Source: a virus. From it: a stretch of DNA of 64,000 nt. The stretch covers positions 248,001 to 312,000 of IMG/VR virus record IMGVR_UViG_3300028666_000022, one strand, 5' to 3'. A program made the position numbers and the translations under genes. The notes below the pieces were generated by a model. That model ran no database searches. It was not told where the DNA came from and saw nothing but the letters and a program-made list of their open reading frames with translations. This document shows positions 1,957 through 56,544 of this stretch, piece after piece; the stretch's first letter is position 1; each line of letters begins with the position of its first letter.

Positions 1957-3336
1957 TTGGAAAATGTAAATAAAAAAGAATTGATTGAATATTTTCTCAC
2001 AGATAATCAATGTGGTTATAAAACAAGAGAAAAACACATAATAAAAAAATTTAATGGTTTAATTGATTTAATTAATGATTATAATCAAAAATATTTTGAT
2101 GATGAATTACCATTTACACAAAAATTATATGATTACTTATATGAAATTACAGAAATTCCTAAATGTAAAAATTGTGGTAATTTAATAAAATGGAGAGGTG
2201 TTTTTACTGAAGGATATTTAAAATATTGTTCTAAAAAATGTAGAAATGAAGTAATGCCAAAAATAATGAATGAAGCAATAGTTGAATTATATGGAGTTAA
2301 AAATATTTTTCAATTAGATAAATTTAAAAATGAAAGGTGGAATACAGGAAATAATAAAATAATTGAACATTTTAAGTTAAGTGGTTTTGAAGTAATCGAA
2401 AGCAATAAGAAAACATTAAAAATTAAACACCCAGATGGTCATATTTTTGAAGGAAACAGAAAAATACTAATAAATAGATTAAATCGAGGTATTGAAGTTT
2501 CTACTAAAATATTACCTATTGGCTCAACATTTTCTACAATAGAACTTGAAATTAGAAATTTTATTAATACACTAAACATTCAACATTCGTTAAGCGATAG
2601 AAAAATATTAAGTGGTAAAGAATTAGATATTTATTTTCAAAATAATAAATTAGCAATTGAATTTGATGGTTTATATTGGCACTCCGAAAATTTTCTTCCA
2701 AACGATTATCATTTAAATAAAACTGAACAATGTGAAAAACAAGAAATTGAATTATTGCACATATTTGAAGATGAATGGTTATGTAAAGAAAAGATTGTAA
2801 AATCGATAATAAAATCTAAGTTAAATATATTTGACACAACAATAGATGGTAATAAATGTTCAATTAAAGAAATTGATGAGATAGAATGTAATAAATTTCT
2901 AAGTAATAACCATATATTTAATTCTATTGAAAGTGATATTAGAATTGGTTTGTTTTATGATGATGAATTAATGTTGGTTATAACATTTAAAAATAATTCA
3001 AATAATGAATATGAAATATTAAGTAATTGCAATAAATTAAATACTAACATACTTAATAGTAACAATAAACTAATAGAATATTTTAAAGCTAAATATCAAC
3101 CATCTTCAATAACAATTTTAGTCGATAGAAGATATTCAAATGGAAATGAATATAAAGATCTTGGTTTTAATTTTATTAAGAATACTGAACCAATCTATTG
3201 GTATTTCGATAAAAATTCAATAATAAAATTTAGTCGTTTTAAAATAAAACCTGAAGATGAATCTACATTGGATAAAAGATTTCTAAAAATTTTTGATTGT
3301 GGTAGTATAAAATTTGAGTTAACCCTTAAAAAATAA
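1957..3336 (+). CDS. Vsr-like (EDxHD-type) homing endonuclease
   Basis: 459 aa from a TTG start. The resulting N-terminus MENVNKK matches MENVKDF of the gene at 1-681, which supports the TTG. The order is: helical module, zinc ribbon (CKNCG, CSKKC), a KHPDGHIFEGNRK segment shared with the gene at 8081, then a nuclease core ELDIYFQNNKLAIEFDGLYWHSE followed by YHLNKTEQCEKQ. The core resembles the Vsr-like family typified by I-Bth0305I. About 170 C-terminal residues form an accessory domain (RIGLFYDDEL, VDRRYSNGNEY, FDCGSIKFEL) also found in two other genes here. It is transcribed away from the tail tube gene. Confidence 0.8.
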   Translation: MENVNKKELIEYFLTDNQCGYKTREKHIIKKFNGLIDLINDYNQKYFDDELPFTQKLYDYLYEITEIPKCKNCGNLIKWRGVFTEGYLKYCSKKCRNEVMPKIMNEAIVELYGVKNIFQLDKFKNERWNTGNNKIIEHFKLSGFEVIESNKKTLKIKHPDGHIFEGNRKILINRLNRGIEVSTKILPIGSTFSTIELEIRNFINTLNIQHSLSDRKILSGKELDIYFQNNKLAIEFDGLYWHSENFLPNDYHLNKTEQCEKQEIELLHIFEDEWLCKEKIVKSIIKSKLNIFDTTIDGNKCSIKEIDEIECNKFLSNNHIFNSIESDIRIGLFYDDELMLVITFKNNSNNEYEILSNCNKLNTNILNSNNKLIEYFKAKYQPSSITILVDRRYSNGNEYKDLGFNFIKNTEPIYWYFDKNSIIKFSRFKIKPEDESTLDKRFLKIFDCGSIKFELTLKK

Positions 3337-3347
3337 TTCTATTTTTC

Positions 3348-3377
3348 TTGTAATTCTAAAATTTTATCTTATATTTG
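3348..3377 (+). promoter_or_regulatory. Bacteroidota-type promoter for DNA ligase operon
   Basis: TTG (3348-3350), a 19-nt spacer and TATATTTG (3370-3377) match the Bacteroidota -33/-7 pattern. The ligase ATG follows 26 nt later. The stretch CTTGTAATTC recurs at 35097 and 46827. Confidence 0.75.
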
Positions 3378-3403
3378 CATAATTAACTTAAAAGATTTTA
3401 ATT

Positions 3404-4783
3404 ATGAAACAACAAGAATTGATTGTAAAGATCCTCACCACATTGAAAGAAATAGAATTATGTACTGGTGAAGGTTCAGTAAAGAAGAAAGCAAATCTAC
3501 TAAATGATTGCAACACTCTTATATCTCAAGACGATTCTAATTTACTAAAATTTATTTTATCTACGGCATTTAATCCTTTCTGGGTAACTCATATAAATAA
3601 GATTGATAAAACAGAAAATAAATATTTCAATGATTATGATTTTTATACTCTCGTTGAAATGTTAAAATCTCTTAAAGCAATGAATAATGATCTTCGTTAT
3701 GTTGTTACTGCTTATGTTAACAGTTTTCCTTTAGAAGTAAGAGATATACTTTCAAAAGTTTTAACAAAAAATTTAAATATTGGAATATCTACAAAGGCAA
3801 TTAATTCTGTTTTTTCTAAACTAATTCCAGACGTAGAGTTAATGAAATGTGAAAAGAAAATTTCTCTTGTTGAAGAATGGTTTAGAAAGGGAGAGGATGT
3901 ATTTGCTGAAATGAAATATGATGGTTGGAGAATTTTTGCTGAAATGAAGGGTACTGAAGTAGTTTCATTGAAAACATATAATATGAGTGAGTTAGATATT
4001 ACAAAAATGACACATATTGTTCCACAGCTTGAATTATTGGGAGCTTCTTGGATGAAAACTGTAAATGTTGAACATTATTTCTTTGACTTTGAAATCACTG
4101 GAAAAGAAAGACAAACTGTAGGTGGAGAAATCGGAAAACTTCTTAAAGGAACTGCAAAAGAAGGTTGTGATAAGAATTGGGTAGTGAATTTATTTGATTG
4201 CCATTCTTGGGATATTTTTGAAGACGTACCAAGTAAAATATCATATTTAAATAGAAGGTCTATATTAGAAATTGTATTTAATTCAACATCAGAAATGCCT
4301 AATCTTCAAATTTCTGAACGTTGGAAAGTTAATTCAATGGAAGAATTAAACACTTTATTTGCTAATGTATTAGAACAAGGTTGTGAAGGTCTTGTTGTTA
4401 AAGTAGGTTCAGGAGTTTATGAACTAAAATATTCTAACTTTTGGGTTAAAATGAAAAGTGAAAAAGAATGTGATCTTAGAATTATTGGTTGGTTTAAGGG
4501 TAAAACTGGAACAAAACGTGAAAAAACTATTGGTGGGTTTGTTTGTGAATCTGAAGATGGTAAATTAAATGTAGATCCGGGTTCTGGGTTTTCGGATAAA
4601 TTATTAGCTGAAATAATAGAAAATGGTGTAGATTCATATATTGGAAAAATTGTTGAAGTAAAATATAATACTATAATTTCAAAAAAAGATAGTGATATTA
4701 AATCTTTATTTCTTCCTAGATTTAAAAGATTTAGATTTGATAAGAATTATGCAGATACTTTAGAAAGAATATTAAGTAAATAA
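3404..4783 (+). CDS. ATP-dependent DNA ligase
   Basis: 459 aa, close to T4 gp30 in size. It seals nicks through an adenylated-lysine intermediate. The adenylation motif KYDGWR is at residues 171-176, with Lys171 the expected nucleophile. Later nucleotidyltransferase motifs are visible: FFDFEI (motif III), EGLVVKV (IV) and FWVKMK (V), followed by an OB-fold region ending LFLPRFKRFRFDK. An N-terminal helical region of about 150 residues resembles a ligase DNA-binding domain. It heads a plus-strand operon with its own host-like promoter, suggesting early expression. Confidence 0.92.
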   Translation: MKQQELIVKILTTLKEIELCTGEGSVKKKANLLNDCNTLISQDDSNLLKFILSTAFNPFWVTHINKIDKTENKYFNDYDFYTLVEMLKSLKAMNNDLRYVVTAYVNSFPLEVRDILSKVLTKNLNIGISTKAINSVFSKLIPDVELMKCEKKISLVEEWFRKGEDVFAEMKYDGWRIFAEMKGTEVVSLKTYNMSELDITKMTHIVPQLELLGASWMKTVNVEHYFFDFEITGKERQTVGGEIGKLLKGTAKEGCDKNWVVNLFDCHSWDIFEDVPSKISYLNRRSILEIVFNSTSEMPNLQISERWKVNSMEELNTLFANVLEQGCEGLVVKVGSGVYELKYSNFWVKMKSEKECDLRIIGWFKGKTGTKREKTIGGFVCESEDGKLNVDPGSGFSDKLLAEIIENGVDSYIGKIVEVKYNTIISKKDSDIKSLFLPRFKRFRFDKNYADTLERILSK

Positions 4784-8080: not shown

Positions 8081-9568
8081 TTATTTACAATCATCCTTCC
8101 ATATACTTTTCCCACAATCAAATATTTTATAATATTTTTTATCTTTACCTATTAGTTCCTTATTTATTCTTCTTTTCTTAACAACATATTTATAGTCGGG
8201 TTTAATATGTTTAATAAATCTAAAACCTAATTTAAGATATTGATTATCTTTAGAATATCTTCTATCATCGAAAGCAATTATTGAAGTTGATACATAGTTT
8301 GACTTAAAGTATTGATATAATTCAATTAGTTTATCTTCGTGATTTTCATTAAGTTTATCAGAAAAATATTGTAATTCATATTCATCATTTTCTATTGATT
8401 TAAAACACATAAGAGAAACTAAATCAGTATTATAGAATAGACCAATTCTAACATCACTTTTAATAGAATCACATAAAGAATTATTATATAGAAAATTATT
8501 TGCATCTATTTCACTAATAGGTTTAATATAGTAATTATTAATATTAGTGTTTTTAGTATTAAGATTCAATTTAGTTCTTATAATATTCTCGATTATTTCA
8601 TATTTTTCAATTAGTTCATCTTCAAAAAAATGTAATAATTCAATTCCTTTCTTTAAGCATTGTTCGGTTTTATTTAGATGATATTTTTTATCATGATATT
8701 TTTCACAGTGCCAATATAAACCATTAATTTCAATAGCTATTTTATATTTAGGAATGTAAATATCTAACTCACCCTTAATTGTTCTTCTATCGTTGGAAAT
8801 ATATTTAATATTATTTTCTTTTAAGAAATTACATATTTTTATTTCAAATGTAGTTCTAGGTGATCCTATTGGTAATAAAACAGTTGATATTTCAGTACCA
8901 TGATTTAATCTACTATTTAATAATTTTCTGTTGCCTTCAAATATATGACCATCTGGATGTTGAATTTTGAGATATTTATTATTAAACTCCAATATTATAT
9001 AACCCTTTTCTTTAAATTTTTCAACTAATACCTTATCTCTTTTTTGTTTTAATTTTAAATTATTATTTTCTACTACTTTCTTCCCTTTTTCACTTTTATA
9101 TGTTTTTCTAAGATTTATAAGTGCTTTTTCTCTTAATGAATCTACTTGAAAAGTGCTTTCTACACCATATTTCTTAAGATTAGCTTCTTTTGTTTTATTA
9201 ATTCTTGATTTTATATTTTCGGGTTTGGCTTGCCAAGATTTTCTACATTTTTCTGAACAGAATTTTCTTTTATGTTTTACTCTTTCTGAAAATACTTTAC
9301 CACAAACTAAACAAGTTCTTTTTTCTTTGGATTTATTTGTTCTCATTTTACCTGCACATTTATATGAGCAGCATTTTTTATCGTCTTTCTTTTTGGATGT
9401 AAATAATTTATTACAACATTCACAATGTTTTTCTATATAAAATATTTTATCTTTTTCTTTTCTGTGCTCAAGTTTACATTTTTTACAACAAAATAATTTT
9501 TCTCTTCCTTTAATTACAGTGAATGATTTATTACACTGTTGACAAACTAATTTAATTATTGTTGCCAT
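8081..9568 (-). CDS. Vsr-like homing endonuclease with three zinc knuckles
   Basis: About 495 aa from the ATG at 9566-9568, which gives MATIIKLVCQQC; an upstream in-frame start would add residues unlike the family. Three CxxC/CxxxC zinc units occupy residues 1-110, then a KKYGVESTFQ repeat, the shared QHPDGHIFEGNRK segment, and the nuclease core ELDIYIPKYKIAIEINGLYWHCE with YHLNKTEQC. The C-terminal accessory domain (RIGLFYNTDL, FDDRRYSKDNQY, IFDCGKSIW) matches the gene at 1957. It lies just downstream of the tail sheath gene, insulated by a hairpin. Confidence 0.82.
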   Translation of the reverse strand: MATIIKLVCQQCNKSFTVIKGREKLFCCKKCKLEHRKEKDKIFYIEKHCECCNKLFTSKKKDDKKCCSYKCAGKMRTNKSKEKRTCLVCGKVFSERVKHKRKFCSEKCRKSWQAKPENIKSRINKTKEANLKKYGVESTFQVDSLREKALINLRKTYKSEKGKKVVENNNLKLKQKRDKVLVEKFKEKGYIILEFNNKYLKIQHPDGHIFEGNRKLLNSRLNHGTEISTVLLPIGSPRTTFEIKICNFLKENNIKYISNDRRTIKGELDIYIPKYKIAIEINGLYWHCEKYHDKKYHLNKTEQCLKKGIELLHFFEDELIEKYEIIENIIRTKLNLNTKNTNINNYYIKPISEIDANNFLYNNSLCDSIKSDVRIGLFYNTDLVSLMCFKSIENDEYELQYFSDKLNENHEDKLIELYQYFKSNYVSTSIIAFDDRRYSKDNQYLKLGFRFIKHIKPDYKYVVKKRRINKELIGKDKKYYKIFDCGKSIWKDDCK

Positions 9569-9598
9569 AATATGTTTAACATAAATAATACGAAATAA

Positions 9599-9627
9599 AA
9601 AAGCCACTAGATTATTTAGTGGCTTTT
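9599..9627 (-). terminator. Terminator of tail sheath gene
   Basis: AAAAGCCACTA (9599-9609) pairs with TAGTGGCTTTT (9617-9627): an 11-bp perfect stem with a 7-nt loop and a T-run on either strand. It lies between the sheath stop and the endonuclease start. Confidence 0.85.
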
Positions 9628-21762: not shown

Positions 21763-23283
21763 ATGAAATTAATTAAAGCCAGCACAGAAATTATTACACC
21801 AATAAATGGTGAAGAAATTCTAAAACAAATTGAACTTGCATCAAGAACCTGTTATCAATCAGAAGGAAAAATAGAATATGAAGATTATATTGACAATGAA
21901 ATTGAACCACCAATTGGAGTTTTAAATTATTACGCTAAATCTGCTCGTGTTTTAATACCCAAACTAATATCACGTGGTCACGAAGCTATGTTAGAATTTG
22001 GTGGTAATATTAGTGTTAAATTTATTTGTGATCGTGGCGTAAGTCATGAACTTGTTCGTCATAGAATTGCTAGTTTTGCTCAAGAAAGCACGAGATATGT
22101 ATCATCTTGTGAAAAAAGAAATATTTTAGAGTTTAATTGTGATAATGAAATTGATATTATTAATGCATATAATCAGGGATTTTCAATGCGAGAAATTTCA
22201 GAATATAGCTGTAACACAGAATGGGAAATTCGTAAAATTTTATTAAAAAATAATGTATCAATTAGAGGATTAAATAATAAAGGTAATAGATGTGAAAATT
22301 ATTTTTCTAATATAGATTCACATGAAAAGGCTTATTTATTAGGTTTAATTCAAACTGATGGCTCTGTTCGCCGTACTTCAAAAGGAAGTTCAAGTCTATG
22401 TATTACTCAACATAAAGATTATGCTTGGTATATTAAATTAATGTTTTCTATATTTAGTGAATATGTTGGTGAAAGTAATGATAGAAATTGTAAACAAATA
22501 GTAATTGGTTCTAAAAAAATTGTAAATGATTTAAATAATTTAGGAATAGTTCAAAATAAAACTGAAAAACAATCTGATAAAGACATAGATATAATGTGGA
22601 ATAGTATCCCCAAAGAATATCTTAATTCATTTATTAGGGGGTTAATTGATGGTGACGGATATGTTTGTTTTTTCAAACAAAAGAAAAGTATAAATGAAAG
22701 TTGTAATATTGGTTTTTGTTCCGTTAATGAGCATTTAATTGATATTCTTATTGATTTTATTAAAAATAATTTTGATTATTCATGTACTAAGTATAAAGAT
22801 AAAAATGTTTATAAATTTAGTATTACCAATTATAAAAAATCTATTTATATTGGTGAGTGGTTATTTAAAGATTTTAAATATCCCTTTGGACACCCCAAAA
22901 AATCTAGTGCTTGGATTAAAAGAATAAATAAACAATATCCAATAGCAGAATTTGGAGGGAATAAATTCATTATAATTAAACCATTGTGGTTAGATTCAAG
23001 TTCTCCAGAATCTATATTTAAGTATATTCATACTATGAATAATATTGAAGTAACATATGAAAAGTTAATATTAGGTGGTTGGTCACCTCAACAAGCTCGT
23101 AGTGTTCTTCCAAATTCTCTTAAAACAGAAATTAATGTTTCTTGTAATATTAGAGAATGGAGACATATTTTTAAACTTCGTTGTGCTAATGCTGCACATC
23201 CAGATATGCAATATTTAATGAGGCCACTATTAAAAGAATTTCAAAGTAGAATTCCAATTTTGTTTAATGATTTAAAATATTAA
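21763..23283 (+). CDS. thyX: Flavin-dependent thymidylate synthase ThyX with in-frame LAGLIDADG insertion
   Basis: 506 aa; ordinary ThyX is about 220. Residues 1-114 and about 392-506 together make a full ThyX: RHRIAS (99-104), STRY (109-112), then after the insert EFGGNKFIII, QQARSVLPNSLKTE and CANAAHPDMQYL. It makes dTMP from dUMP with FAD and folate. The insert (about 115-391) has a helix-turn-helix-like region (SMREISEYSCNTEWEIRKIL) and two LAGLIDADG motifs (LGLIQTDGS near 193, RGLIDGDGY near 292). I see no intein block A, no block B His, and no terminal His-Asn, so it does not look like a standard intein. Confidence 0.88.
   Translation: MKLIKASTEIITPINGEEILKQIELASRTCYQSEGKIEYEDYIDNEIEPPIGVLNYYAKSARVLIPKLISRGHEAMLEFGGNISVKFICDRGVSHELVRHRIASFAQESTRYVSSCEKRNILEFNCDNEIDIINAYNQGFSMREISEYSCNTEWEIRKILLKNNVSIRGLNNKGNRCENYFSNIDSHEKAYLLGLIQTDGSVRRTSKGSSSLCITQHKDYAWYIKLMFSIFSEYVGESNDRNCKQIVIGSKKIVNDLNNLGIVQNKTEKQSDKDIDIMWNSIPKEYLNSFIRGLIDGDGYVCFFKQKKSINESCNIGFCSVNEHLIDILIDFIKNNFDYSCTKYKDKNVYKFSITNYKKSIYIGEWLFKDFKYPFGHPKKSSAWIKRINKQYPIAEFGGNKFIIIKPLWLDSSSPESIFKYIHTMNNIEVTYEKLILGGWSPQQARSVLPNSLKTEINVSCNIREWRHIFKLRCANAAHPDMQYLMRPLLKEFQSRIPILFNDLKY
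22105..22935 (+). mobile_element. LAGLIDADG endonuclease insertion inside thyX
   Basis: About 277 codons placed right after the ThyX RHRxxS/STRY signature. Boundaries are approximate: joining residue 114 to Tyr392 restores the usual spacing to the FGG segment. The open frame continues through both junctions. It could be a degenerate intein, an intron whose RNA core overlaps the ORF, or a tolerated insertion; the sequence alone does not decide. Confidence 0.7.
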
Positions 23284-29292: not shown

Positions 29293-29454
29293 ATGGGATA
29301 TTCAAAAGACAAAGACAGGACATTAGGCATAAGACTTGATGTAGATCTCAAAAAGAGATATTTAAAATTTATTAGTGATAATGGATATTCATTATCGAAA
29401 AGAATAAGAGTTTTATTGGAAAATGATATGAAAAATGAAAAAAACAGTATTTGA
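29293..29454 (+). CDS. Small ribbon-helix-helix (Arc/MetJ-type) protein
   Basis: 53 aa. The strand RTLGIRLDVDLKKRYLKF and the helix pair that follows (GYSLSKRIRVLLENDMKNE) fit an RHH DNA-binding fold. Its last 20 nt overlap the start of the endonuclease gene at 29435, so both are made from one transcript. It may repress its own promoter and thereby the endonuclease; that regulation is inferred. Confidence 0.6.
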   Translation: MGYSKDKDRTLGIRLDVDLKKRYLKFISDNGYSLSKRIRVLLENDMKNEKNSI

Positions 29455-30907
29455 TGACATTAGTAGTTTTACTAAGGAAGAACTGAAAATCTGGTTTAAC
29501 ACAGATAATATTGGTGGTCATAAATGTAGAGAAAATTTTATTTTTGAACATTATCCTGATTTACATAAAGAAATTCTTGAATATTCAAAAATAAACCCAG
29601 ATGTCATTAATTGGAAAGAAAAACTATTTAATTATTTAAATAATTTAATTGAAAATCCTAAATGTAAAAATTGTGGAAAAACTTTACATATTAGTACAAA
29701 ACATAAAAATTATCCAACATTTTGTTCAAAAGAATGTTATGATAAAAAACGAAATTTTAAACCAAAAAAAGAAAATATTGATATTAGTGCTTTTTCTAAA
29801 GAAGAATTAAAAGAATGGTTTTTATGTAATAATTATGGTGGGTATAAAACACGGGAAGATTGGCTTAAATTACACTATCCAATTCTTTTAGATAAAATAT
29901 TAAAAAATACTAATGAAATTAATTTAAAATTAAAGGCAAAAATTTATTTATATATTTATGATTTAAAAGAAAGTCCGAAATGTCAAGAATGTGGAAATAA
30001 ATGTAATTTTAGGGATCATTTAACAGAAGGTTTTACTAAATATTGTTGCAATAAATGTTCTCTTAAACAAAGTAGAAAATATAATGGGAAAAATAAAGTG
30101 AATATAGAAAATTATGCATCATTCTCTGATTTTATTATTAAGAATTATAAAAATGGTATGAGTTCAAACGAATGTTACATAAAAGAATCTAATCCAATTG
30201 AATATAATGAAATTATTAATCTACCAATTAACTTAAATAATATTCCTTGGAGAGAGAAATTATATAATTATACACATGGAATCATAGAAAGACCAATATG
30301 TCCTGAATGTGGTAAACCAGTGAAATTTAAAAATTTTAATAAGGGTTATAGAAAATTTTGTTCAAAAAAATGTCAAATAGTTTTTATTAATAATATAATA
30401 AGAAATAATTATAATATTATTATAGCTAAGAGAAAAGAAACTAATTTAAAAAAATATGGTGTTGAACATGCTGCGCAAAATAAAGAAATACAGGAAAAAA
30501 TACAACAAACTATAATTGAAAAGTATGGAGAAATTTATGCAAAATATATTCCAAAATATAATATTAATTCAATAATATATTTAGATATTTTAGCTGAAAA
30601 ATTAAATCTTCATATACAACATGCTTTAAATGGTGGGGAAAAAAGATTTATAAAATATTGGATTGATGGATATAGTGAAAAATATAATGTATGTATAGAA
30701 TGGAATGAAAAATATCATTACACAAAAAAGAATATCGAAAAAGATATAAAAAGAAATAAATTTTTAGTTGAAAATTTTAGGTGTAAGATGATTTATATTA
30801 AAGAAAAAGAATTTTTAAAAGATGTTGAGAAAAATATTGAGATATTATGTAATGAAATAAATGAATATATTAAAACTAAAACTGTTTTAGAACCCACTAA
30901 ATACTGA
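29435..30907 (+). CDS. Homing endonuclease-like protein with three zinc-ribbon modules
   Basis: 490 aa. Three repeats of one module occupy residues about 10-330. Each has a helical GG(H/Y)K(C/T)RE motif or a variant, a helix ending in W(K/R)EKL(F/Y)NY, then PKCxxCG and a CSKxC knuckle. A KKYGVEHAAQ repeat and a C-terminal PD-(D/E)xK-like segment (YWIDGYSEKYNVCIEWNEKYHY) follow. The first repeat resembles the N-termini of the genes at 1-681 and 1957. Its stop codon overlaps the 3' end of the convergent gp13-like gene by 11 nt. Confidence 0.72.
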   Translation: MKKTVFDDISSFTKEELKIWFNTDNIGGHKCRENFIFEHYPDLHKEILEYSKINPDVINWKEKLFNYLNNLIENPKCKNCGKTLHISTKHKNYPTFCSKECYDKKRNFKPKKENIDISAFSKEELKEWFLCNNYGGYKTREDWLKLHYPILLDKILKNTNEINLKLKAKIYLYIYDLKESPKCQECGNKCNFRDHLTEGFTKYCCNKCSLKQSRKYNGKNKVNIENYASFSDFIIKNYKNGMSSNECYIKESNPIEYNEIINLPINLNNIPWREKLYNYTHGIIERPICPECGKPVKFKNFNKGYRKFCSKKCQIVFINNIIRNNYNIIIAKRKETNLKKYGVEHAAQNKEIQEKIQQTIIEKYGEIYAKYIPKYNINSIIYLDILAEKLNLHIQHALNGGEKRFIKYWIDGYSEKYNVCIEWNEKYHYTKKNIEKDIKRNKFLVENFRCKMIYIKEKEFLKDVEKNIEILCNEINEYIKTKTVLEPTKY

Positions 30908-40194: not shown

Positions 40195-40452
40195 ATGAAT
40201 AAATTAAAAAATTTCTATGAAAATTATTTAGAATATTATTTTTTCGTATTCAAAATATATTTAAAACTATTTTTAATATCAGCATCAGGATTTTTTATTT
40301 TACAAGGAATAGCTTCATTTTTATTATTTTATGAACAAATATATTCAGAAGAAATAAATTTTAATAATTTAATGATTGGTCCTACTATTTTTGGAATTAT
40401 GATTTGTTTTATTTTTGGAATGCAAATACATCGTTATAATAAATTGAATTAA
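40195..40452 (+). CDS. Two-pass membrane protein, 85 aa
   Basis: Start chosen at ATG 40195 (MNKLKNFYENYLEYYFF); an upstream GTG lies within the preceding gene. Two hydrophobic segments: LFLISASGFFILQGIASFLL and LMIGPTIFGIMICFIFGM. Ends with a basic tail. One base shared with the helicase start. Function unknown. Confidence 0.5.
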   Translation: MNKLKNFYENYLEYYFFVFKIYLKLFLISASGFFILQGIASFLLFYEQIYSEEINFNNLMIGPTIFGIMICFIFGMQIHRYNKLN

Positions 40453-43019
40453 TGATACACAAACCCACCAAAGAACAAGAAAAAATATTTACTTATATTG
40501 AAAAACGACCTGAAAATCTATTAATTGAAGCATACGCCGGAGCTGGGAAAAGTTCCACTGTTGTTGAAGCAGTTAGGTTATTACCTAAAGATAAGTCAAT
40601 AACATTTTTAGCTTTTAATAAACACATTCAAGAAGAATTAAAAACTAAATTACCTGAACATGTGAGGTGTTATACAACATATGGTTTAGGAAATGCAGCA
40701 ATTAAAAGAAAATATGGTGATAAGATAGTGTTCGATGAATTCAAAGCAGACAAAATAATTCAAAAGAAAGCTAAAAATTGGGATTTAAATAACGAATTTA
40801 AAAATGAAGAGAAAATAAATTATTATCTAAATAATATAAAAAAATTAGTTAATCTCTGTAGATTAACATTAACAGTAAAGCCAGATTACATACCGTTTTT
40901 AGCTGAAAGACATGATATCAATAATTTAAGTAAACCAAAAGATATTAAAAGAGTTCTAAAAGTACTAGATGAAATGACTATAGATAGAACTTCTTATGAT
41001 TATACCGATATGGTTTATTTACCAGCAGTTGATAATTCAATTTGGATGTTTCCTCAAGATTATGTAATCGTGGATGAATGTTTACCAAAAGAAACATATA
41101 TTTTAACAACAGAAGGTAAAATACAAATAAATTTATTGTGTACTAATTATAATAAAAATATAAAAATACCTAATGTTATTACATATAATGAAACTATAAA
41201 TAAATTTGAAGAAAAGAAAATAAATTGTGTTTGGTGTAATGGGATTAAGGATGTTTATTGTGTTAAATTAGGCACTAAAAGAAAATTGTATGCTACAGTT
41301 AATCATAAATTTTTAACATTAAATGGATGGAAAAGATTAGATGAACTAAAAATTGGAGATGCTATACTATCGAATTATCATAATCAACCATATCATTCGA
41401 TATTAAATAATATACAAAAAGAAATTTTTGTTGGTTCAATTCTTGGTGATGGACATTTATATAGTTTAAGTAAAAATATAGGAAGAATTAGTGTTATTCA
41501 TGGTGAAAAACAAAAGAAATATATTGAATGGAAAGGACAATTTTTTAATTCTAAAATAAATAAAATTGAAAAAAATGGTTATAGTCAAAAGGTTGCATAT
41601 ACTTTTCGAACATTAGGATATTATTTTGATTTAAATATCGAAGATAGTATAAAATCAATAACTCCACAATCATTAGCAATTGCTTGGATGGATGATGCTA
41701 ATTTAAGTAAATTTGAAAATTGTTCAAAATTATATTCATTGGCTACAACAAAAAACTATGTCCAATTATTAAATAAAACAATATTTAATAATTGGAATAT
41801 CGAATCTAGTGTTAGAACACAAAAAAGTTCATCAACAAAAAAAGAATATTATTATTTAGAATTTAATAAAAAAAATACCGAAAAAATATCTGAATTAATT
41901 TCACCGTATATTCATGAATCAATGAAATATAAAATTTTAAAAAAACATTATAATAATATTAATAATGAAAATTGGAATATTATTGATGATAAATACTCAA
42001 ATTTAGGTTGTATTGTTGTTACTGATGAATATAAATTTCATAAAACCGAAAAAACATATGACATGAGTGTTGAGGATAATCATAATTTTATTATTACTTC
42101 GAAAAAAGATAGTAAAAATAGAGGTGGAGCGAGTAATAATGGAATTGTTGCACATAATTGTCAGGATACTGGGTCAGCACAACAAAAAATAATTGAAAAA
42201 ATATTAAAAAAAGATAAATTAACTGGTAAAATTTTAGGTAGATTAATCTCGGTGGGTGATAAATTTCAAAACATATATGCATTTAATGGTAGTAGTGATA
42301 AATGTTTTGAATGGTTCAGAAATTTTCCTAATACAAAAGTTTTACCTCTTTCATATTCTTTTAGGTGCGCCAAAAACATCATTTTAAAAGCAAATGAAAT
42401 TGTACCAGATATTAAAGCATTGGATGATGCACCTGATGGTATTGTTAGAGATGGTGATGTATTAAGTGAAGCTCAGAGTGGTGATTTTGTTTTATGTAGA
42501 ACAACAATGCCATTGGTTAAATTATTTTTTCAATTCTTATTACAACATAAAAAAGCAATTATTAAAGGCAGTGATATTGGAGTGCATCTTATTGAATTAA
42601 TTGGTAAAATTAATAATATTAAACAATTAATTAGTTTTTGGGAAAAAGAATTAGATGATTATAGTAATGATTTAAAATCAAAAGGTATTTTAAATCCAGA
42701 TGAACATAGTGGTTACATTGCTTTAGCTGATAAAGTTTCAACATTATTATTTCTAGCTAAACTTTCAAATAGTATCGAAGATCTTAAAGATAAAATAAGA
42801 ACAATATTTAGTGATGAAATTGAGGGTATTGTGCTCAGTTCTATCCACAAAATCAAGGGGTTAGAGTCAAATAGAGTATTTATTGTTAGACCAGATTTAT
42901 TACCGTTAAAAACTGCAAGAGGATGGCAAAAAGATCAGGAAATGAATTTATCATATGTCTCAATAACGAGGGCCAAATTAGAATTAATTTATGATAGAGA
43001 ATGGTCAGATTTAAAATAA
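40452..43019 (+). CDS. dda: Dda-like SF1 DNA helicase containing an intein
   Basis: 855 aa; without the intein the helicase is 495 aa (T4 Dda is 439). Walker A is AYAGAGKSST near residues 27-36, motif Ia is FLAFNKHIQ. The Walker B/DExQD box is split: VIVDE before the intein and CQDTG after it, giving VDECQDTG on splicing. Later SF1 motifs: VGDKFQNIYAFNGS (III), LSYSFRCAKNI (IV), SSIHKIKGLES (V) and SYVSITRAKLEL (VI). It unwinds DNA at forks or origins and removes bound proteins. Without splicing the ATPase site cannot form. Confidence 0.9.
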   Translation: MIHKPTKEQEKIFTYIEKRPENLLIEAYAGAGKSSTVVEAVRLLPKDKSITFLAFNKHIQEELKTKLPEHVRCYTTYGLGNAAIKRKYGDKIVFDEFKADKIIQKKAKNWDLNNEFKNEEKINYYLNNIKKLVNLCRLTLTVKPDYIPFLAERHDINNLSKPKDIKRVLKVLDEMTIDRTSYDYTDMVYLPAVDNSIWMFPQDYVIVDECLPKETYILTTEGKIQINLLCTNYNKNIKIPNVITYNETINKFEEKKINCVWCNGIKDVYCVKLGTKRKLYATVNHKFLTLNGWKRLDELKIGDAILSNYHNQPYHSILNNIQKEIFVGSILGDGHLYSLSKNIGRISVIHGEKQKKYIEWKGQFFNSKINKIEKNGYSQKVAYTFRTLGYYFDLNIEDSIKSITPQSLAIAWMDDANLSKFENCSKLYSLATTKNYVQLLNKTIFNNWNIESSVRTQKSSSTKKEYYYLEFNKKNTEKISELISPYIHESMKYKILKKHYNNINNENWNIIDDKYSNLGCIVVTDEYKFHKTEKTYDMSVEDNHNFIITSKKDSKNRGGASNNGIVAHNCQDTGSAQQKIIEKILKKDKLTGKILGRLISVGDKFQNIYAFNGSSDKCFEWFRNFPNTKVLPLSYSFRCAKNIILKANEIVPDIKALDDAPDGIVRDGDVLSEAQSGDFVLCRTTMPLVKLFFQFLLQHKKAIIKGSDIGVHLIELIGKINNIKQLISFWEKELDDYSNDLKSKGILNPDEHSGYIALADKVSTLLFLAKLSNSIEDLKDKIRTIFSDEIEGIVLSSIHKIKGLESNRVFIVRPDLLPLKTARGWQKDQEMNLSYVSITRAKLELIYDREWSDLK
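41079..42158 (+). mobile_element. LAGLIDADG intein in helicase Walker B motif
   Basis: 360 aa, from Cys210 to Asn569 of the precursor. Block A is CLPKETYILTTEGK, block B is TVNHKFLTLNGWKRL, block F is KTYDMSVEDNHNFIITS, and the end GIVAHN precedes Cys570. All expected catalytic residues are present: Cys1, block-B His, penultimate His, terminal Asn and +1 Cys. LAGLIDADG motifs: FVGSILGDGHLY and LAIAWMDDANLS. A standard splicing-competent intein by sequence. Confidence 0.93.
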
Positions 43020-47432: not shown

Positions 47433-47795
47433 ATGAAAGTTTTAATCAATTTAATTATTGAAAATTTAACAGATGACTTATTAAAAAATAAATATAAGTC
47501 ATCTGTTAATAAAAATAAATTTACTGGACATTGTTATGTTGCTACAGAAACATTATATCACTTACTTGATGATAATGAGAAAAAAAATTATATACCAGCA
47601 ATATTAAAAATTAATAATGATACCCATTGGTTTTTAAAAAATAAAATAACTGGTGAAATATTTGATATAACAAAAAATCAATTTAATTATAGTTTAGATT
47701 ATAGTAAATCAATAAATAAAGCTTTTTTAACAAAAAATCCATCAAAAAGAACATTAATATTAATAAATAGAATATATGAAAAAATTAATTTATAA
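47433..47795 (+). CDS. Possible papain-like hydrolase, 120 aa
   Basis: From ATG 47433 (MKVLINLIIENLTDD). Cys in GHCYVATETLYHLL, His in NDTHWFLKN and Asp in GEIFDITKNQF have the order and spacing of a small papain/NlpC-like catalytic triad. It ends in FLTKNPSKRTLILINRI. Phage relatives of this shape exist, but I do not know a function. Its 3' end overlaps the chimeric endonuclease by 20 nt. Confidence 0.5.
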   Translation: MKVLINLIIENLTDDLLKNKYKSSVNKNKFTGHCYVATETLYHLLDDNEKKNYIPAILKINNDTHWFLKNKITGEIFDITKNQFNYSLDYSKSINKAFLTKNPSKRTLILINRIYEKINL

Positions 47796-49686
47796 CAAAA
47801 CAATACTATTATTTTTAGATACTAATGATATTGAAACATTAGAAAAGGGTGATTTAAAAAAAATAAAAGATGATTATCTGCTTATATATGATAATTGTGT
47901 TATTTTTAGTTATTTCGATATAAAATATCATAAAAATATAATTAAAGATAAAATAAATAAATTGAAGTTTATTAAGCAAACTAAAATAAATGCAAGAGAA
48001 TGTAATATTGTAAAAATAGACAACGTTGAAAAAAATAAATTTTTGAATGAAAATCATCTTCAAGAAACCGATAGATCTCAAATATTTTATGGAGCATATT
48101 ATAATAATGAATTACTTGCTGTTATGACATTTGATAATTCAAGAAAAATGAATGGTGGTGTTGAAAAAGATGAAAATGAATATGATTTATCAAGATTTGC
48201 AATTAAAATGGGTTATATTATTGTTGGTGTATTTAATAAGATGCTAATGACATTTATTAATGATTATTCGCCAAATAAAATTATAACATTTGCTGATTTA
48301 GATTTGGTTAATAGAGAAAATAATATTTATTTACACAATAATTTTAAATTATGTAAAGTAATTAACCCTGATTTTAGAATATATTTAAAAAATAAAAATA
48401 ATATCTTTCATAAATTTACTTATGGTAATAAGTTTATGAAAGATGGTAAAATTTCTGACGAAAAGAAAGAAGATGTAAGAGAAAATATGATAAAATTATG
48501 GAACTGTGGAAAAATAAAATATGAATTATTAATAATTAACAAAAAAATAATATATGGTTTTATTTACATAATAAAAAATAAAACTAATGGTAAAATATAT
48601 ATTGGTCAAACAACTAGAAGTTTTACTAGAAGATTATGGGAATATAGAAGCGCATATAAATATAATAATTTTCACAATCAATATCTTGCTAATGCATTCA
48701 ATAAATATGGTTGGGATAATTTTGAAATTTCTGTTATAGATAATGCATTAACTGTTGAAGAATTAAATGAAAAAGAAATCAATTACATTAACAAATATAA
48801 TTCAAATAATAGAGAATTTGGATATAATTTAGAGGCAGGTGGTAATAATTCTCTTCCTAGTTCAGAAACACTTGAAAAAATGTCAATTTCGCATCAAGGT
48901 GTTGTTCAAAGTGATGAATGGGTTGAAAAGAGAATTGCTAAAGCTGGTACTGAAGATGCAAAGAAATATGGAAAAGCTAAAACAGAAGAAGAAAAATTAA
49001 AATTAAGTTTAACCTCAACTAAATTTTGGGAAGGAAAAACCAGAGACGAAGAAACTAGAAGAAAGATAAGTGAAACAAAAAAGAAAAATGGGTTATCGGA
49101 AAAACAAAAAGAATTATCATGTGTACGTGTTTGTAAAGTAAATTCAAAAACTAATGAGATTGTAGAAACATTTGAATCAGTATCGGAAACTGCTAGACGT
49201 GAAAATACTAGTCAGGCAACTATCATTAGAAGATGTTCTGGTGAAACAAAAAATGTTGGCGATTATTTTTATTATTATGAATCAGATTTTTCGAATAATA
49301 TTGTAAGAGAATTTAAATCAACCGAACGCAAAAGTTTGAATAATTTTACTGAAGAAGAATTACATAAAATTTATAATGAACACATTAATGATGGAGTTTC
49401 AGTTAGAGAATTATGTACTAAATATAATCTAATTTATAGTACTCTTTCTAATTATATCAGTAAAAAAAGAAATCCACTTAATTTAGATTCTAAATATTGG
49501 GCTGTTTGTAAGAAAACCAATAAAAAATTTGAAGATTATTTAAATAAATCTGGAGTATTAACAAGACATATTCAAGAAATATATGCTGAAGAGAATTTAG
49601 AATCAAAATTTTCACGAAAGAAAATTGAATTAGAATCTGGACACTTTTGGTACGCTAGATTTTTTGATTTTATTGAAATTAAATAA
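47776..49686 (+). CDS. Chimeric homing endonuclease: accessory domain + GIY-YIG + AVCKKT module
   Basis: 636 aa. Residues 1-250 are the accessory domain seen at the C-terminus of the Vsr-like nucleases (SQIFYGAYYNNELLAVMTFD, then WNCGKIKYELL). Residues about 255-350 are GIY-YIG (GFIYIIKNKTNGKIYIGQTT, Arg helix, Glu in EEINYINKY-type helix NEKEINYINKY). NUMOD-like and helix-turn-helix segments follow, and residues about 570-636 are the AVCKKTNKKFEDYLNKSG module. So parts of two nuclease families are fused in one gene. Confidence 0.8.
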   Translation: MKKLIYNKTILLFLDTNDIETLEKGDLKKIKDDYLLIYDNCVIFSYFDIKYHKNIIKDKINKLKFIKQTKINARECNIVKIDNVEKNKFLNENHLQETDRSQIFYGAYYNNELLAVMTFDNSRKMNGGVEKDENEYDLSRFAIKMGYIIVGVFNKMLMTFINDYSPNKIITFADLDLVNRENNIYLHNNFKLCKVINPDFRIYLKNKNNIFHKFTYGNKFMKDGKISDEKKEDVRENMIKLWNCGKIKYELLIINKKIIYGFIYIIKNKTNGKIYIGQTTRSFTRRLWEYRSAYKYNNFHNQYLANAFNKYGWDNFEISVIDNALTVEELNEKEINYINKYNSNNREFGYNLEAGGNNSLPSSETLEKMSISHQGVVQSDEWVEKRIAKAGTEDAKKYGKAKTEEEKLKLSLTSTKFWEGKTRDEETRRKISETKKKNGLSEKQKELSCVRVCKVNSKTNEIVETFESVSETARRENTSQATIIRRCSGETKNVGDYFYYYESDFSNNIVREFKSTERKSLNNFTEEELHKIYNEHINDGVSVRELCTKYNLIYSTLSNYISKKRNPLNLDSKYWAVCKKTNKKFEDYLNKSGVLTRHIQEIYAEENLESKFSRKKIELESGHFWYARFFDFIEIK

Positions 49687-49960
49687 ATTTAATATTGGGG
49701 TTTAATTAAATAAAATAAATACATGATTAAAGATTAACTAGTTTATATATGTGGTTACTTTTTAATCTCTATGAAGTCAAAAAACTTAGCATACCAGAAA
49801 TGACCAGTTTCTAACTCAATTTTCTTTCTAAGGTATTTTGATTCTAAATTCTCTTCAGGATATGTTTCTTGAATATGTCTTGTCAATACTCCAGATTTAT
49901 TTAAATAATCTTCAAATTTTTTATTGGTTTTCTTGCAAACAGCAATATAATTAGAATCTA
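49500..49960. repeat. Inverted repeat formed by convergent endonuclease 3' ends
   Basis: The last about 65 codons of the genes ending at 49686 (plus) and 49755 (minus) encode almost the same residues (DYLNKSGVLTRHIQE, FFDFIEIK). The DNA is similar but not identical, giving arms of about 190 bp around a 70-bp centre. Confidence 0.65.
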
Positions 49961-51164
49961 AGTCAAGTACATTTTCTTTTTTATTTTTCTTTTCAATATA
50001 TGATAATAATATTGAAAATCTTATTGAATATTTTTTAGATAATTCTCTTATTGATATAAGAGAATTCATGTGTTCATTATACATATCTAATAATTCATTA
50101 TCTGTAAATTCTTCTAATTTTTTAAATATATTAGATTTGAAATCTTTTAATTCGTTATTTAGAAAATCACATTCATAACACCAATAATATTCACCTTTAT
50201 TTTTTGATATACCTAAACATTTTCTTAATATTGCTTCATATGATAAATTATCTGAATTTAATCTACCAGCATCCGCTAATGATTTAAATTTTTCTACAAT
50301 TTCATTATTTTTATTAATTTTTAAAACTGGTTTAGATACTTTATTTATTCTTTTCTCAATCCATTCTTTATTTTGTTTAATATCTTTTCTTGCTAAAGAT
50401 AATTTTAATTTTGTTTCTAAACTAGCAAGAGAGTTTTTACCACCATTTTCAATATTATAACCAAATTCTCTAATATTTGATTTATATTTATTAATATAAT
50501 TGATTTCTTTTTCATTTAGTTCATCAATATTTGTTGCATAATCAATGATATTGAACTCAAAATTATTTAAATTATGTTTATTAAATGCATGATATAGTAT
50601 ATGATCTTCATTATTTTTTGCTTTTAATATATGTTCATATAATCTGTCTTTCACTCTTATACTTTGACCGACATATTTCTTATTATTTAGTTTATTGATT
50701 ATTAGATAAATATGTCCGAATTCATCTAAAGTAATATCTAATTTAATATTTACATTAATATTATGTTTTTTCATTACCCAAATATTTGTTTTTTCTGAAG
50801 ATGATGTTAAATTATTATTAAAATCATAATTATAACCAAATTCTTCAATATTTGATTTATAAATGTTAGTATGAACAATTTTTTTCAAATCTAACTCACT
50901 AATATTTGATGCACTATCAATGATAGCAAACTCAAAATTATTAATCCCATATTCATTAAATGCATCACATATTGGATGATTTTCACCATTATTTGCTCTT
51001 CGTATATGTTCGCCAAATCTCTTTCTAACTTGAGTACTTTGTCCAACATATTTTTTATTGTTTATTTTATTTGTAAGTAAATAAATATGTCCAAATTCAT
51101 TCATGATTATATTTTTACTAACATTTACTATGATTTCATGTTTTTCAATTAACCAAGTTTCCAT
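49755..51164 (-). CDS. Homing endonuclease with two GIY-YIG domains
   Basis: 469 aa. First domain about residues 25-115 (GHIYLLTNKINNKKYVGQST), second about 148-240 (GHIYLIINKLNNKKYVGQSI). The second keeps the Glu-bearing helix (NEKEINYINKYKS); in the first this helix reads DLKKIVHTNIYKS, with Lys at the catalytic Glu, so it is probably inactive. NUMOD-like repeats and the AVCKKTNKKFEDYLNKSG module follow. It lies just downstream of the major capsid gene, past a terminator. Confidence 0.8.
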   Translation of the reverse strand: METWLIEKHEIIVNVSKNIIMNEFGHIYLLTNKINNKKYVGQSTQVRKRFGEHIRRANNGENHPICDAFNEYGINNFEFAIIDSASNISELDLKKIVHTNIYKSNIEEFGYNYDFNNNLTSSSEKTNIWVMKKHNINVNIKLDITLDEFGHIYLIINKLNNKKYVGQSIRVKDRLYEHILKAKNNEDHILYHAFNKHNLNNFEFNIIDYATNIDELNEKEINYINKYKSNIREFGYNIENGGKNSLASLETKLKLSLARKDIKQNKEWIEKRINKVSKPVLKINKNNEIVEKFKSLADAGRLNSDNLSYEAILRKCLGISKNKGEYYWCYECDFLNNELKDFKSNIFKKLEEFTDNELLDMYNEHMNSLISIRELSKKYSIRFSILLSYIEKKNKKENVLDLDSNYIAVCKKTNKKFEDYLNKSGVLTRHIQETYPEENLESKYLRKKIELETGHFWYAKFFDFIEIKK

Positions 51165-54636: not shown

Positions 54637-56544
54637 TTATAGTAAAAACTTATCTATTGCAGATGATAATTTATTATCTTCTTCTTTTAAATAAACACCA
54701 TTTTTATTTACATAACTTTCTTCAAAACTAAAATTTCCTTTATTTGGAAATAAATATGCTCCGGGAGTACTTGGTGTAGAAACTAAATCAAATGCTATTA
54801 ATTCAAAATCATTTTGAACATAATTTTCACCTTGTATTTCTTTTAATGTTCCAACTCCCCTTGATGATATTCCAATTCTGATTTTGTTTTGTAGATATAA
54901 AACTATTTTATCACCAATGACTGAAACAACACCATACTTAATATAACCGGGAGATACAATTATTTTTAATTGACCAAACAAAACATTTTCTTCTTTACCT
55001 TTTCCCCACCACATTTTTGTTATTAAATGTGATATGTTTTGTAAGGAAACTACAGATGAATTACCAGTCCAATGTGCTTTACCATTTACTTTAACTAAGA
55101 AATTACCATTTTTAACTCTAACACAAGCAATGTTATCATTAAAATCAATTTCAGTAACTTTAATAAATCTTTTATCTAAATAAATGTGTTTAGTTTTTGA
55201 TATGTTTAAATTATATTGTATTTGACTATTCTCTGCTTTAATCAATCTATTTGTTTCGAGAGTTTCATTAATATATTCAATTGTACCATCAGATAAAACA
55301 ACTTCTTTTTTTACTATTTTTTTATCGATAATATTTCTATCTTTGGGTTGATATGTTGTAATTGTACCACTACTACCAGTTTTAATTAAGATCTCATGTA
55401 AATCTTCAATTAGTTGTCTTGATGTTGAAAAAACAGATTTTTTATTATTTAGTTTTCCATTTTTTTCAACATAATCAATGTTCCTGCCATCACCCAACCA
55501 GAACCAATGAAATAATATTTTTAATAAATCCGAAGATGCTTGTTTTAATTCTATTGGAATATATTTATTATGTGAATGTCCTAATATATATAGATAATTA
55601 TATAATCTAGCATCATTAATATGATATTGACATTTACCATCATCATGCTCGTCTTTCCAAAATTTAAATGGTAATTTTTTTAATAAATTTTCAATAAGAA
55701 TCTTTTTTTCTTTATTTTTTTGTGTTATAATAACACTATAACCACTTAATTTATATTGATTTGATTTAGCACCAGTACTATGACCTTCAGCTAAATATAT
55801 TCCCATAAAAGCAAACCAATCTTCTGATTTAATTTTTATTGGTGTAGTATAACGTTCAATTAAATCATGTTTTGAATTAAAACTTAACGTATTCTTATCT
55901 ACTCCTTCTAAAGTAAAATATTCATTATAATTACCTTGCCATTCAGCAGTTTTTAATATTTTATATTTTCCTGATGAAAGAACATTGTTTAGATTATTAT
56001 AAATATCTTTAGCATAATAATATTCTCTTTTGCCTTTAGAGTTTTCTATTAAAAATCTATGATTTTCTGTTACAGTTAAATCGATTGAATTACTTAAAAA
56101 TTTATACATTTTACCTTGATATGGTGTATATATTTTTTTATCTATTTTTTGAATTTCAATTTGATTAGTTTCTGTATTAAGTGTTAATATTTCTTCATTC
56201 TCTGAAATATCTTTAAACCATTTCCATCCATCTTTAGTGCATATTTTAGATTCTGAAGCATTCACGCAATCTGGATGATCAGCTTCATTTACAGCACAAT
56301 TAGTATCAATTAGTTTTTGATATTCTATAACTTGAGGAACTAAAACATCTTTTGGATAAATTCTACCATTTTTATTTTTCACACCCCATTTTTGAAGTAT
56401 GCAATCTATTAAGACTGGTTCATTAGGTTTAAGTTCAAAACCTTCTTTAATTAATTGTGGATTTAAGTCTGAAGTAATAAAACCTGAATCCGACTCAATA
56501 AGAATTCCAAAACCCGTCTCATTTGCTTTTAATATATTGCCCAT
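54637..56544 (-). CDS. 21: Prohead maturation protease (T4 gp21-like) containing an intein
   Basis: 635 aa; the spliced product would be 232 aa (T4 gp21 is 212). Before the intein: GRIYPKDVL and NEADHPD with catalytic His90. After it: SSVVSLQNISHLITKMWWGK (catalytic Ser region), GISSRGVGTL and ELIAFDLVSTPSTPGAY. The enzyme cuts scaffold, capsid and portal-associated proteins in the prohead, in T4 after (I/L)xE. Unspliced precursor should be inactive because the insert separates His from Ser. Confidence 0.92.
   Translation of the reverse strand: MGNILKANETGFGILIESDSGFITSDLNPQLIKEGFELKPNEPVLIDCILQKWGVKNKNGRIYPKDVLVPQVIEYQKLIDTNCAVNEADHPDCVNASESKICTKDGWKWFKDISENEEILTLNTETNQIEIQKIDKKIYTPYQGKMYKFLSNSIDLTVTENHRFLIENSKGKREYYYAKDIYNNLNNVLSSGKYKILKTAEWQGNYNEYFTLEGVDKNTLSFNSKHDLIERYTTPIKIKSEDWFAFMGIYLAEGHSTGAKSNQYKLSGYSVIITQKNKEKKILIENLLKKLPFKFWKDEHDDGKCQYHINDARLYNYLYILGHSHNKYIPIELKQASSDLLKILFHWFWLGDGRNIDYVEKNGKLNNKKSVFSTSRQLIEDLHEILIKTGSSGTITTYQPKDRNIIDKKIVKKEVVLSDGTIEYINETLETNRLIKAENSQIQYNLNISKTKHIYLDKRFIKVTEIDFNDNIACVRVKNGNFLVKVNGKAHWTGNSSVVSLQNISHLITKMWWGKGKEENVLFGQLKIIVSPGYIKYGVVSVIGDKIVLYLQNKIRIGISSRGVGTLKEIQGENYVQNDFELIAFDLVSTPSTPGAYLFPNKGNFSFEESYVNKNGVYLKEEDNKLSSAIDKFLL
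55060..56268 (-). mobile_element. LAGLIDADG intein in prohead protease
   Basis: 403 aa, from Cys93 to Asn495. Block A begins CVNASESKICTKDGWKW; block B is TVTENHRFLIENSKG; the C-terminus is VKVNGKAHWTGN followed by Ser496. The penultimate residue is Gly, not His; a His lies three residues earlier. LAGLIDADG motifs: FMGIYLAEGHS and WFWLGDGRNI. Joining the flanks restores the gp21 sequence ADHPD-SSVVSL. Confidence 0.9.

Follow-up and report, generated by a model that had tools for sequence, protein, structure and literature searches.

Can a homing endonuclease lodge beside the active site of an enzyme, in the enzyme's own reading frame, with no recognisable means of being spliced out again? Homing endonucleases that reside in introns or inteins spare their host gene by splicing, and the free-standing ones lie between genes. 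The question is raised by a thyX gene in a 64,000-nucleotide stretch of DNA (hereafter the window) taken from a 339,898-base virus record (IMGVR_UViG_3300028666_000022). The original prediction, made from the letters alone, had described complete ThyX halves around an insert placed just after the active-site signature, and had offered three readings, namely an insertion of 277 residues that ThyX tolerates, a group I intron whose RNA core is hidden in the frame, or a degenerate intein. This interpretation held in part: the tolerated insertion is the option favoured by the evidence, and the hidden intron and the degenerate intein are not supported. We consider it likely that a splicing-free homing endonuclease domain is kept as an insertion in the mobile active-site loop of ThyX.

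An endonuclease in the reading frame of thyX

The gene and its parts, all on the plus strand, are as follows.

21763..23283, +: thyX with the in-frame homing endonuclease insert; 506 aa in one open frame; the 340 kb record has no further Thy1 match
21763..22101, +: ThyX N-terminal half, residues 1-113, with the RHRIASFAQESTRY active-site motif; catalytic residues kept in 3/3 inserted homologues
22099..22116, +: left junction/linker, residues 113-118; low AlphaFold confidence
22102..22932, +: insert, residues 114-390, 277 aa, a helix-turn-helix (HTH) plus double LAGLIDADG endonuclease; no HINT and no intron core detected
22147..22248, +: HTH region of the insert, model residues 129-162; AlphaFold helices 129-137, 142-147 and 153-162
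22321..22863, +: LAGLIDADG fold with two repeats, model residues 187-367; from the secondary structure of the model and Foldseek matches to I-Tsp061I, I-AniI and I-SceI
22336..22362, +: LAGLIDADG motif 1, LLGLIQTDG, residues 192-200; Asp conserved in 3/3
22633..22659, +: LAGLIDADG motif 2, IRGLIDGDG, residues 291-299; Asp conserved in 3/3
22891..22959, +: right junction/linker, residues 377-399, FGHPKKSSAWIKRINKQYPIAEF; low AlphaFold confidence, highly conserved with L001
22933..23280, +: ThyX C-terminal half, residues 391-506; R446 (AR.VLP) and R473 (LR) conserved

Both ThyX halves are complete, as had been predicted. Pfam Thy1 matched the 506-aa ORF at E 7e-36 in two stretches, one at each end, and the NCBIfam thyX model scored 99.1 bits against a cut-off of 87.9. 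The RHRxxS motif, the following S.RY and the downstream arginines are present, with R99, H100, R101, S109, R111, Y112, R446 and R473 all retained. The insert begins immediately after RHRIASFAQESTRYV. Since insert-free phage ThyX proteins read STRY[C/V]NYSKDKFGGEITFIKP at this site, the window protein can be read as STRYV-[277 residues]-QYPIAEFGGNKFIIIKP, without any evident loss.

The endonuclease assignment of the insert was likewise confirmed. LAGLIDADG_3 (PF14528) matched it at E 9.6e-10, and the phage endonuclease family phrog_4645 (PHROG) matched it at E 5e-33 over profile positions 44-288 of 308, that is, over most of its length. Both LAGLIDADG motifs carry the terminal acidic residue. 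At the 23% GC of the insert, 277 stop-free codons would be expected by chance with a probability of about 7e-14.

Recurrence at the same codon

The same insert occurs in frame at the same codon of thyX in two further phages, L001 (IMGVR 3300029906_000002, 168.6 kb; 588-aa thyX) and L203 (IMGVR 3300026549_000298; 573-aa thyX), the latter found by a junction-based scan. The three inserts are 276-277 aa long and 57-64% identical with almost no indels; identity in the ThyX parts is 42-48%. All three phages have a frame that is open through both junctions and retain R99, H100, R101, S109, R111, R446 and R473. The sample comprises these three cases, all metagenomic and of one family. Early pattern scans of IMG/VR gave no example besides L001, which was also the only two-sided in-frame fusion without HINT among 80 IMG/VR loci with endonuclease relatives, and GTDB genome contigs yielded no further examples. 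Very close relatives yielded no insert-free allele, and the exact empty site is therefore only inferred. The L001 thyX also has a second in-frame insertion of about 37 residues (YWLINKNTNKVDKVIPGRSWKDINSVPRSMYNIVERG) in its region 4400-4764, near the C-terminal active-site arginine, which was not present in the other ThyX sequences compared.

Both parts of the fusion evolve as protein. Among the three phages, dN/dS is 0.16-0.28 for the insert and about 0.35 or lower for the ThyX parts, indicating purifying selection on both. Synonymous sites at the insert ends have diverged widely (pS 0.55-0.71 in the first and last 27 codons), and the protein is conserved despite this divergence, most of all at the right end (pN 0.15-0.17 in the last 27 codons).

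Search for splicing machinery

Most relatives of the insert are located in introns or are free-standing, so that the natural prior was a self-splicing group I or other intron, with a ribozyme core hidden in the open frame and the whole insert excised from the mRNA. The closest relatives are indeed intron-encoded, in gyrA of Bacillus phage Goe21, the DNA polymerase of Providencia phage PR1 and rec of Staphylococcus phage MSA6, and genuine group I introns are known in phage thyX, as in Kolpuevirus 'frurule' (L196). Against this, the Rfam search for group I/II introns gave no match at E<=10 over 22080-22970 or over the L001 insert; the conserved group I ribozyme core (P3-P9, RF00028) was not detected in the insert at E<=10, and at E<=1 RF00028 matched nowhere in the 340 kb record. 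In comparable short stretches, the control introns of 'frurule' thyX (74 bits, E 8e-19) and MSA6 rec (E 0.026) were found. However, Rfam scores several true phage introns weakly (PR1 0.013, L006 0.43) and missed two apparently intron-interrupted loci, Goe21 gyrA and the MMB025 polymerase, so that its negative result alone is modest. Stronger is the protein alignment of the insert, in which free-standing endonucleases match it over nearly its full length; about 100 nt at most are left over, and thus no non-coding room for a core. The end codons combine high synonymous divergence with a conserved protein, the RNA folding of the insert is ordinary (z -0.62), and a consensus fold of the three inserts revealed no common structure, its covariation term being unfavourable. 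The 3' junction is moreover in frame in every one of the three phages. Taken with these results, the hidden intron that had been proposed is very unlikely.

The alternative of a degenerate or unrecognised intein, which would still excise itself from the protein, deserves attention because the window genome is rich in inteins and the sister phage L002 (LR756500.1) has a thyX intein five codons upstream of the window insertion site. That intein was readily detected by the same searches (Intein_splicing E 7.8e-15, intein_Nterm 8.5e-10, intein_Cterm 9.7e-6). By contrast, no HINT model matched the thyX of the window or L001 at E<=10 in Pfam and NCBIfam, and none matched that of L203 in Pfam. The intein blocks reported missing in the original prediction are therefore absent by these models, and by the HINT-profile check that it had proposed the insert is not recognisable as an ordinary intein. 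Terminal splicing residues were not found either: the first residue of the three inserts is Ser or Asn, the last residues are KRINK, KRINK or KRLNE, and Q or K follows, so that no junction of Asn/Gln plus Cys/Ser/Thr is common to all three. In the AlphaFold model, the HTH/LAGLIDADG fold takes up all of the insert but about 16 and 23 residues, far too few to form a HINT domain. An intein, even a degenerate one, thus seems highly improbable.

Intein-like sequences were noted at other loci as well. The window carries a helicase-like ORF with a HINT intein match of 57.5 bits (40452-43019) and a protease-like ORF with a HINT match of 20 bits, below the curated cut-off (54637-56544). In L187 (own record C1, about 191300, minus strand), a 953-aa replicative helicase-like ORF has an apparent intein in its Walker A motif (GVGK^AQPLTSK...LTHN^TT); this intein seems to begin with Ala, hence is not of standard class 1, and was missed by PF14890 at E 1e-3.

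Predicted structure and the fate of ThyX

In an AlphaFold model of the 506-aa single chain (mean pLDDT 83), the ThyX core, the three-helix HTH region and the two-repeat LAGLIDADG fold form separate parts, joined by low-confidence linkers at 113-118 and 377-399. Except in the linkers and the 41-60 loop, pLDDT is mostly 79-97 across the ThyX core blocks. The insert shows the alpha-beta-beta-alpha-beta-beta-alpha repeat fold, and its best Foldseek matches in the PDB are the homing endonucleases I-Tsp061I, I-AniI and I-SceI, with E about 1e-7. In the input of this first run, the alignment wrongly set parts of the free endonucleases against ThyX columns; a second run without these endonucleases gave the same order of secondary structure and a confident ThyX core with a low-confidence LAGLIDADG part, so that the quality of the LAGLIDADG model rests on the first run.

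Alignment to PDB structures places the insertion point at residue 92 of the Chlorella virus PBCV-1 ThyX, in a loop (89-104) that is reported to become ordered only upon inhibitor binding (PMC3498832). The insert therefore seems to have gone into a loop next to the active site that is mobile by nature. Since this loop contributes to dUMP binding, an insertion of 277 aa could slow or block catalysis. It could accordingly be asked whether the insertion inactivated ThyX and left the gene as a mere carrier for the endonuclease, the more so as it adjoins the substrate-binding motif and the host cell may provide dTMP. This is very unlikely given that both ThyX halves are intact in all three phages with every catalytic residue and under purifying selection, that both junctions are still in frame after the inserts diverged by about 35-43%, and that no second ThyX was found in the window or L001 records, both of which are possibly incomplete. 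A back-up thymidylate synthase was not found in the window record either, where thyA is absent, although the record may be incomplete.

The flexibility predicted for both linkers might alternatively suit a fused protein that is cut by a protease or another process into a split ThyX and a free endonuclease. We found no published example of such cleavage and know of no cleavage signal, and we regard it as most unlikely. In the reading that we favour, the fusion would persist as one 506-aa product and be active as ThyX.

Horizontal movement and probable co-conversion

In the ThyX tree, the window groups with L012, which has no insert, and L002, which has its intein elsewhere, and L001 and L203 group with crAss-like phages. 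With the tract downstream of the insert masked, a single clade of the three inserted ThyX was rejected (p-AU 3e-9), as was a clade of window plus L001 (p-AU 2e-5); a clade of L001 plus L203 was not rejected (p-AU 0.24), L203 being a long branch. As the inserted ThyX do not form one clade, the insert has moved horizontally, and its distribution at a single site is at odds with the host gene tree in the manner of a mobile element. That two other phages carry the element at the identical site, and that it has passed between ThyX lineages, speaks for a mobile element that is active and against a relic.

Immediately after the insert, the window ThyX carries a further mark that may relate to this movement:

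22933..23037, +: 35-codon downstream ThyX tract common to the window and L001 and not to the window's ThyX sisters; probable co-conversion tract

Over these 35 residues, normalised similarity is 0.56 between window and L001 and 0.07 between window and its sister L012, and outside the tract window and L012 have a similarity of 0.81. The window-L001 pair ranked 1 of 70 comparably distant pairs (mean 0.07, sd 0.09), a rank that is descriptive because the tract was noticed before the test. The shared tract probably reflects the co-conversion expected of double-strand-break repair during homing, and the transfer was likely directed from a crAss-like donor to the window's lineage. Over 22933-23037, synonymous divergence from L001 is low (pS 0.33, against 0.58 for the insert) while amino-acid divergence is ordinary, although this is a small sample.

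On these grounds, we propose that an HTH plus double LAGLIDADG gene, kin of phage group I intron endonucleases, came to lie in frame within thyX without splicing machinery, and that translation would yield one protein of 506 residues. ThyX would fold around the insert, which would emerge from the core on two flexible linkers and form a domain of its own, at the mobile loop just past the STRY substrate-binding motif. In co-infecting phages, the endonuclease would cleave thyX copies that lack the insert, at the STRY codons, and repair off the inserted copy would spread the insert, sometimes taking downstream thyX along.

Further putative free-standing homing-type endonuclease ORFs, recognised by sequence only, lie in the window at 47776-49686, 49755-51164, 1957-3336, 8081-9607 and 29435-30907, consistent with a genome rich in mobile elements. 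In another phage, L103 (LR756508.1, 484 kb), a HEARO-like RNA (2289-2510; 68.9 bits, below the gathering score of 83) is followed immediately by a LAGLIDADG ORF, where an HNH-type ORF would be usual.

Significance and comparison with known systems

What is new here is that the same insert stands at the same thyX codon in two further metagenomic phages. Three distinct phages carry it within a conserved gene, where it seems to do without splicing, and there are signs that it has moved horizontally. That distantly related phage ThyX share one insert at one position points to a selfish gene able to spread as a loop that the working enzyme tolerates. We lean towards regarding this as a class of splicing-free homing, in which the endonuclease enters a mobile active-site loop, the enzyme stays a working two-function fusion, and horizontal transfer carries the element from one distant phage to another; such a fusion may also couple nucleotide synthesis to a nuclease within a single protein. 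If so, a selfish gene could maintain itself within a conserved one through the choice of a loop that the enzyme is able to extend, and the fusion would offer a natural test of the insertion size that an active-site loop can bear. The thyX gene now shows three kinds of intervening element, an intron, an intein and a naked endonuclease, within a few codons of each other. In a search limited to an open-access library, we found no earlier description of thyX with a naked endonuclease.

The other two kinds of element in thyX differ from the window insert. Inteins occur in frame near the active-site motif of phage thyX both in L002 and in the ThyX-like inteins reported in mycobacteriophages (PMC5050341); in L002 (LR756500.1, 462 kb phage; thyX at 3001-4719) the intein interrupts FAQE^STRY and comprises a complete HINT domain together with an HNH-like region, whereas the window insert has no HINT and follows STRYV. 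A mobile-type element next to the same RHR motif of the same gene is also found in L196 (OQ198718.1, Kolpuevirus 'frurule'), but there the element has a clear ribozyme core (74 bits) and stop codons that split thyX, and the window insert has neither. This element, at 1023-1408 of L196, is a group I intron in a crAss-like thyX at RGVSH^FVRHR (Rfam 74.1 bits, E 8e-19), and the record annotates two separate thyX genes.

With the group I intron endonucleases of MSA6 (I-MsaII in rec), Goe21 (gyrA) and PR1 (DNA polymerase), the insert shares family, 22-32% identity and the HTH plus LAGLIDADG architecture; those endonucleases lie within intervening sequence, with a start and stop of their own and with non-coding flanks able to carry an intron core, whereas the insert has no start, stop or non-coding flank. 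The ShiLan domain (PMC11855218) is, like the insert, an in-frame-open and apparently unspliced homing insertion in a phage enzyme, but its HNH endonuclease lies in another reading frame and that of the window in the frame of the host gene. When such an overlapping endonuclease was looked for in the window insert, the only other-frame ORF was a 62-aa TTG frame.

The nearest published case is the lone LAGLIDADG domain in the DNA methylase of the actinophage Taj (Taj_79) and its relatives (PMC9957025, PMC11855218). Both are in-frame LAGLIDADG insertions in a phage enzyme with no HINT, no detectable intron and a predicted separate domain, and that of Taj is thought not to interfere with the enzyme. 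The Taj domain comprises 139 aa, lies in a methylase that is missing entirely from some relatives, and is inherited vertically within one clan. The window insert, in contrast, has 277 aa with an HTH and two LAGLIDADG motifs, resides in the active-site loop of a nucleotide-synthesis enzyme, and has moved between distant ThyX lineages.
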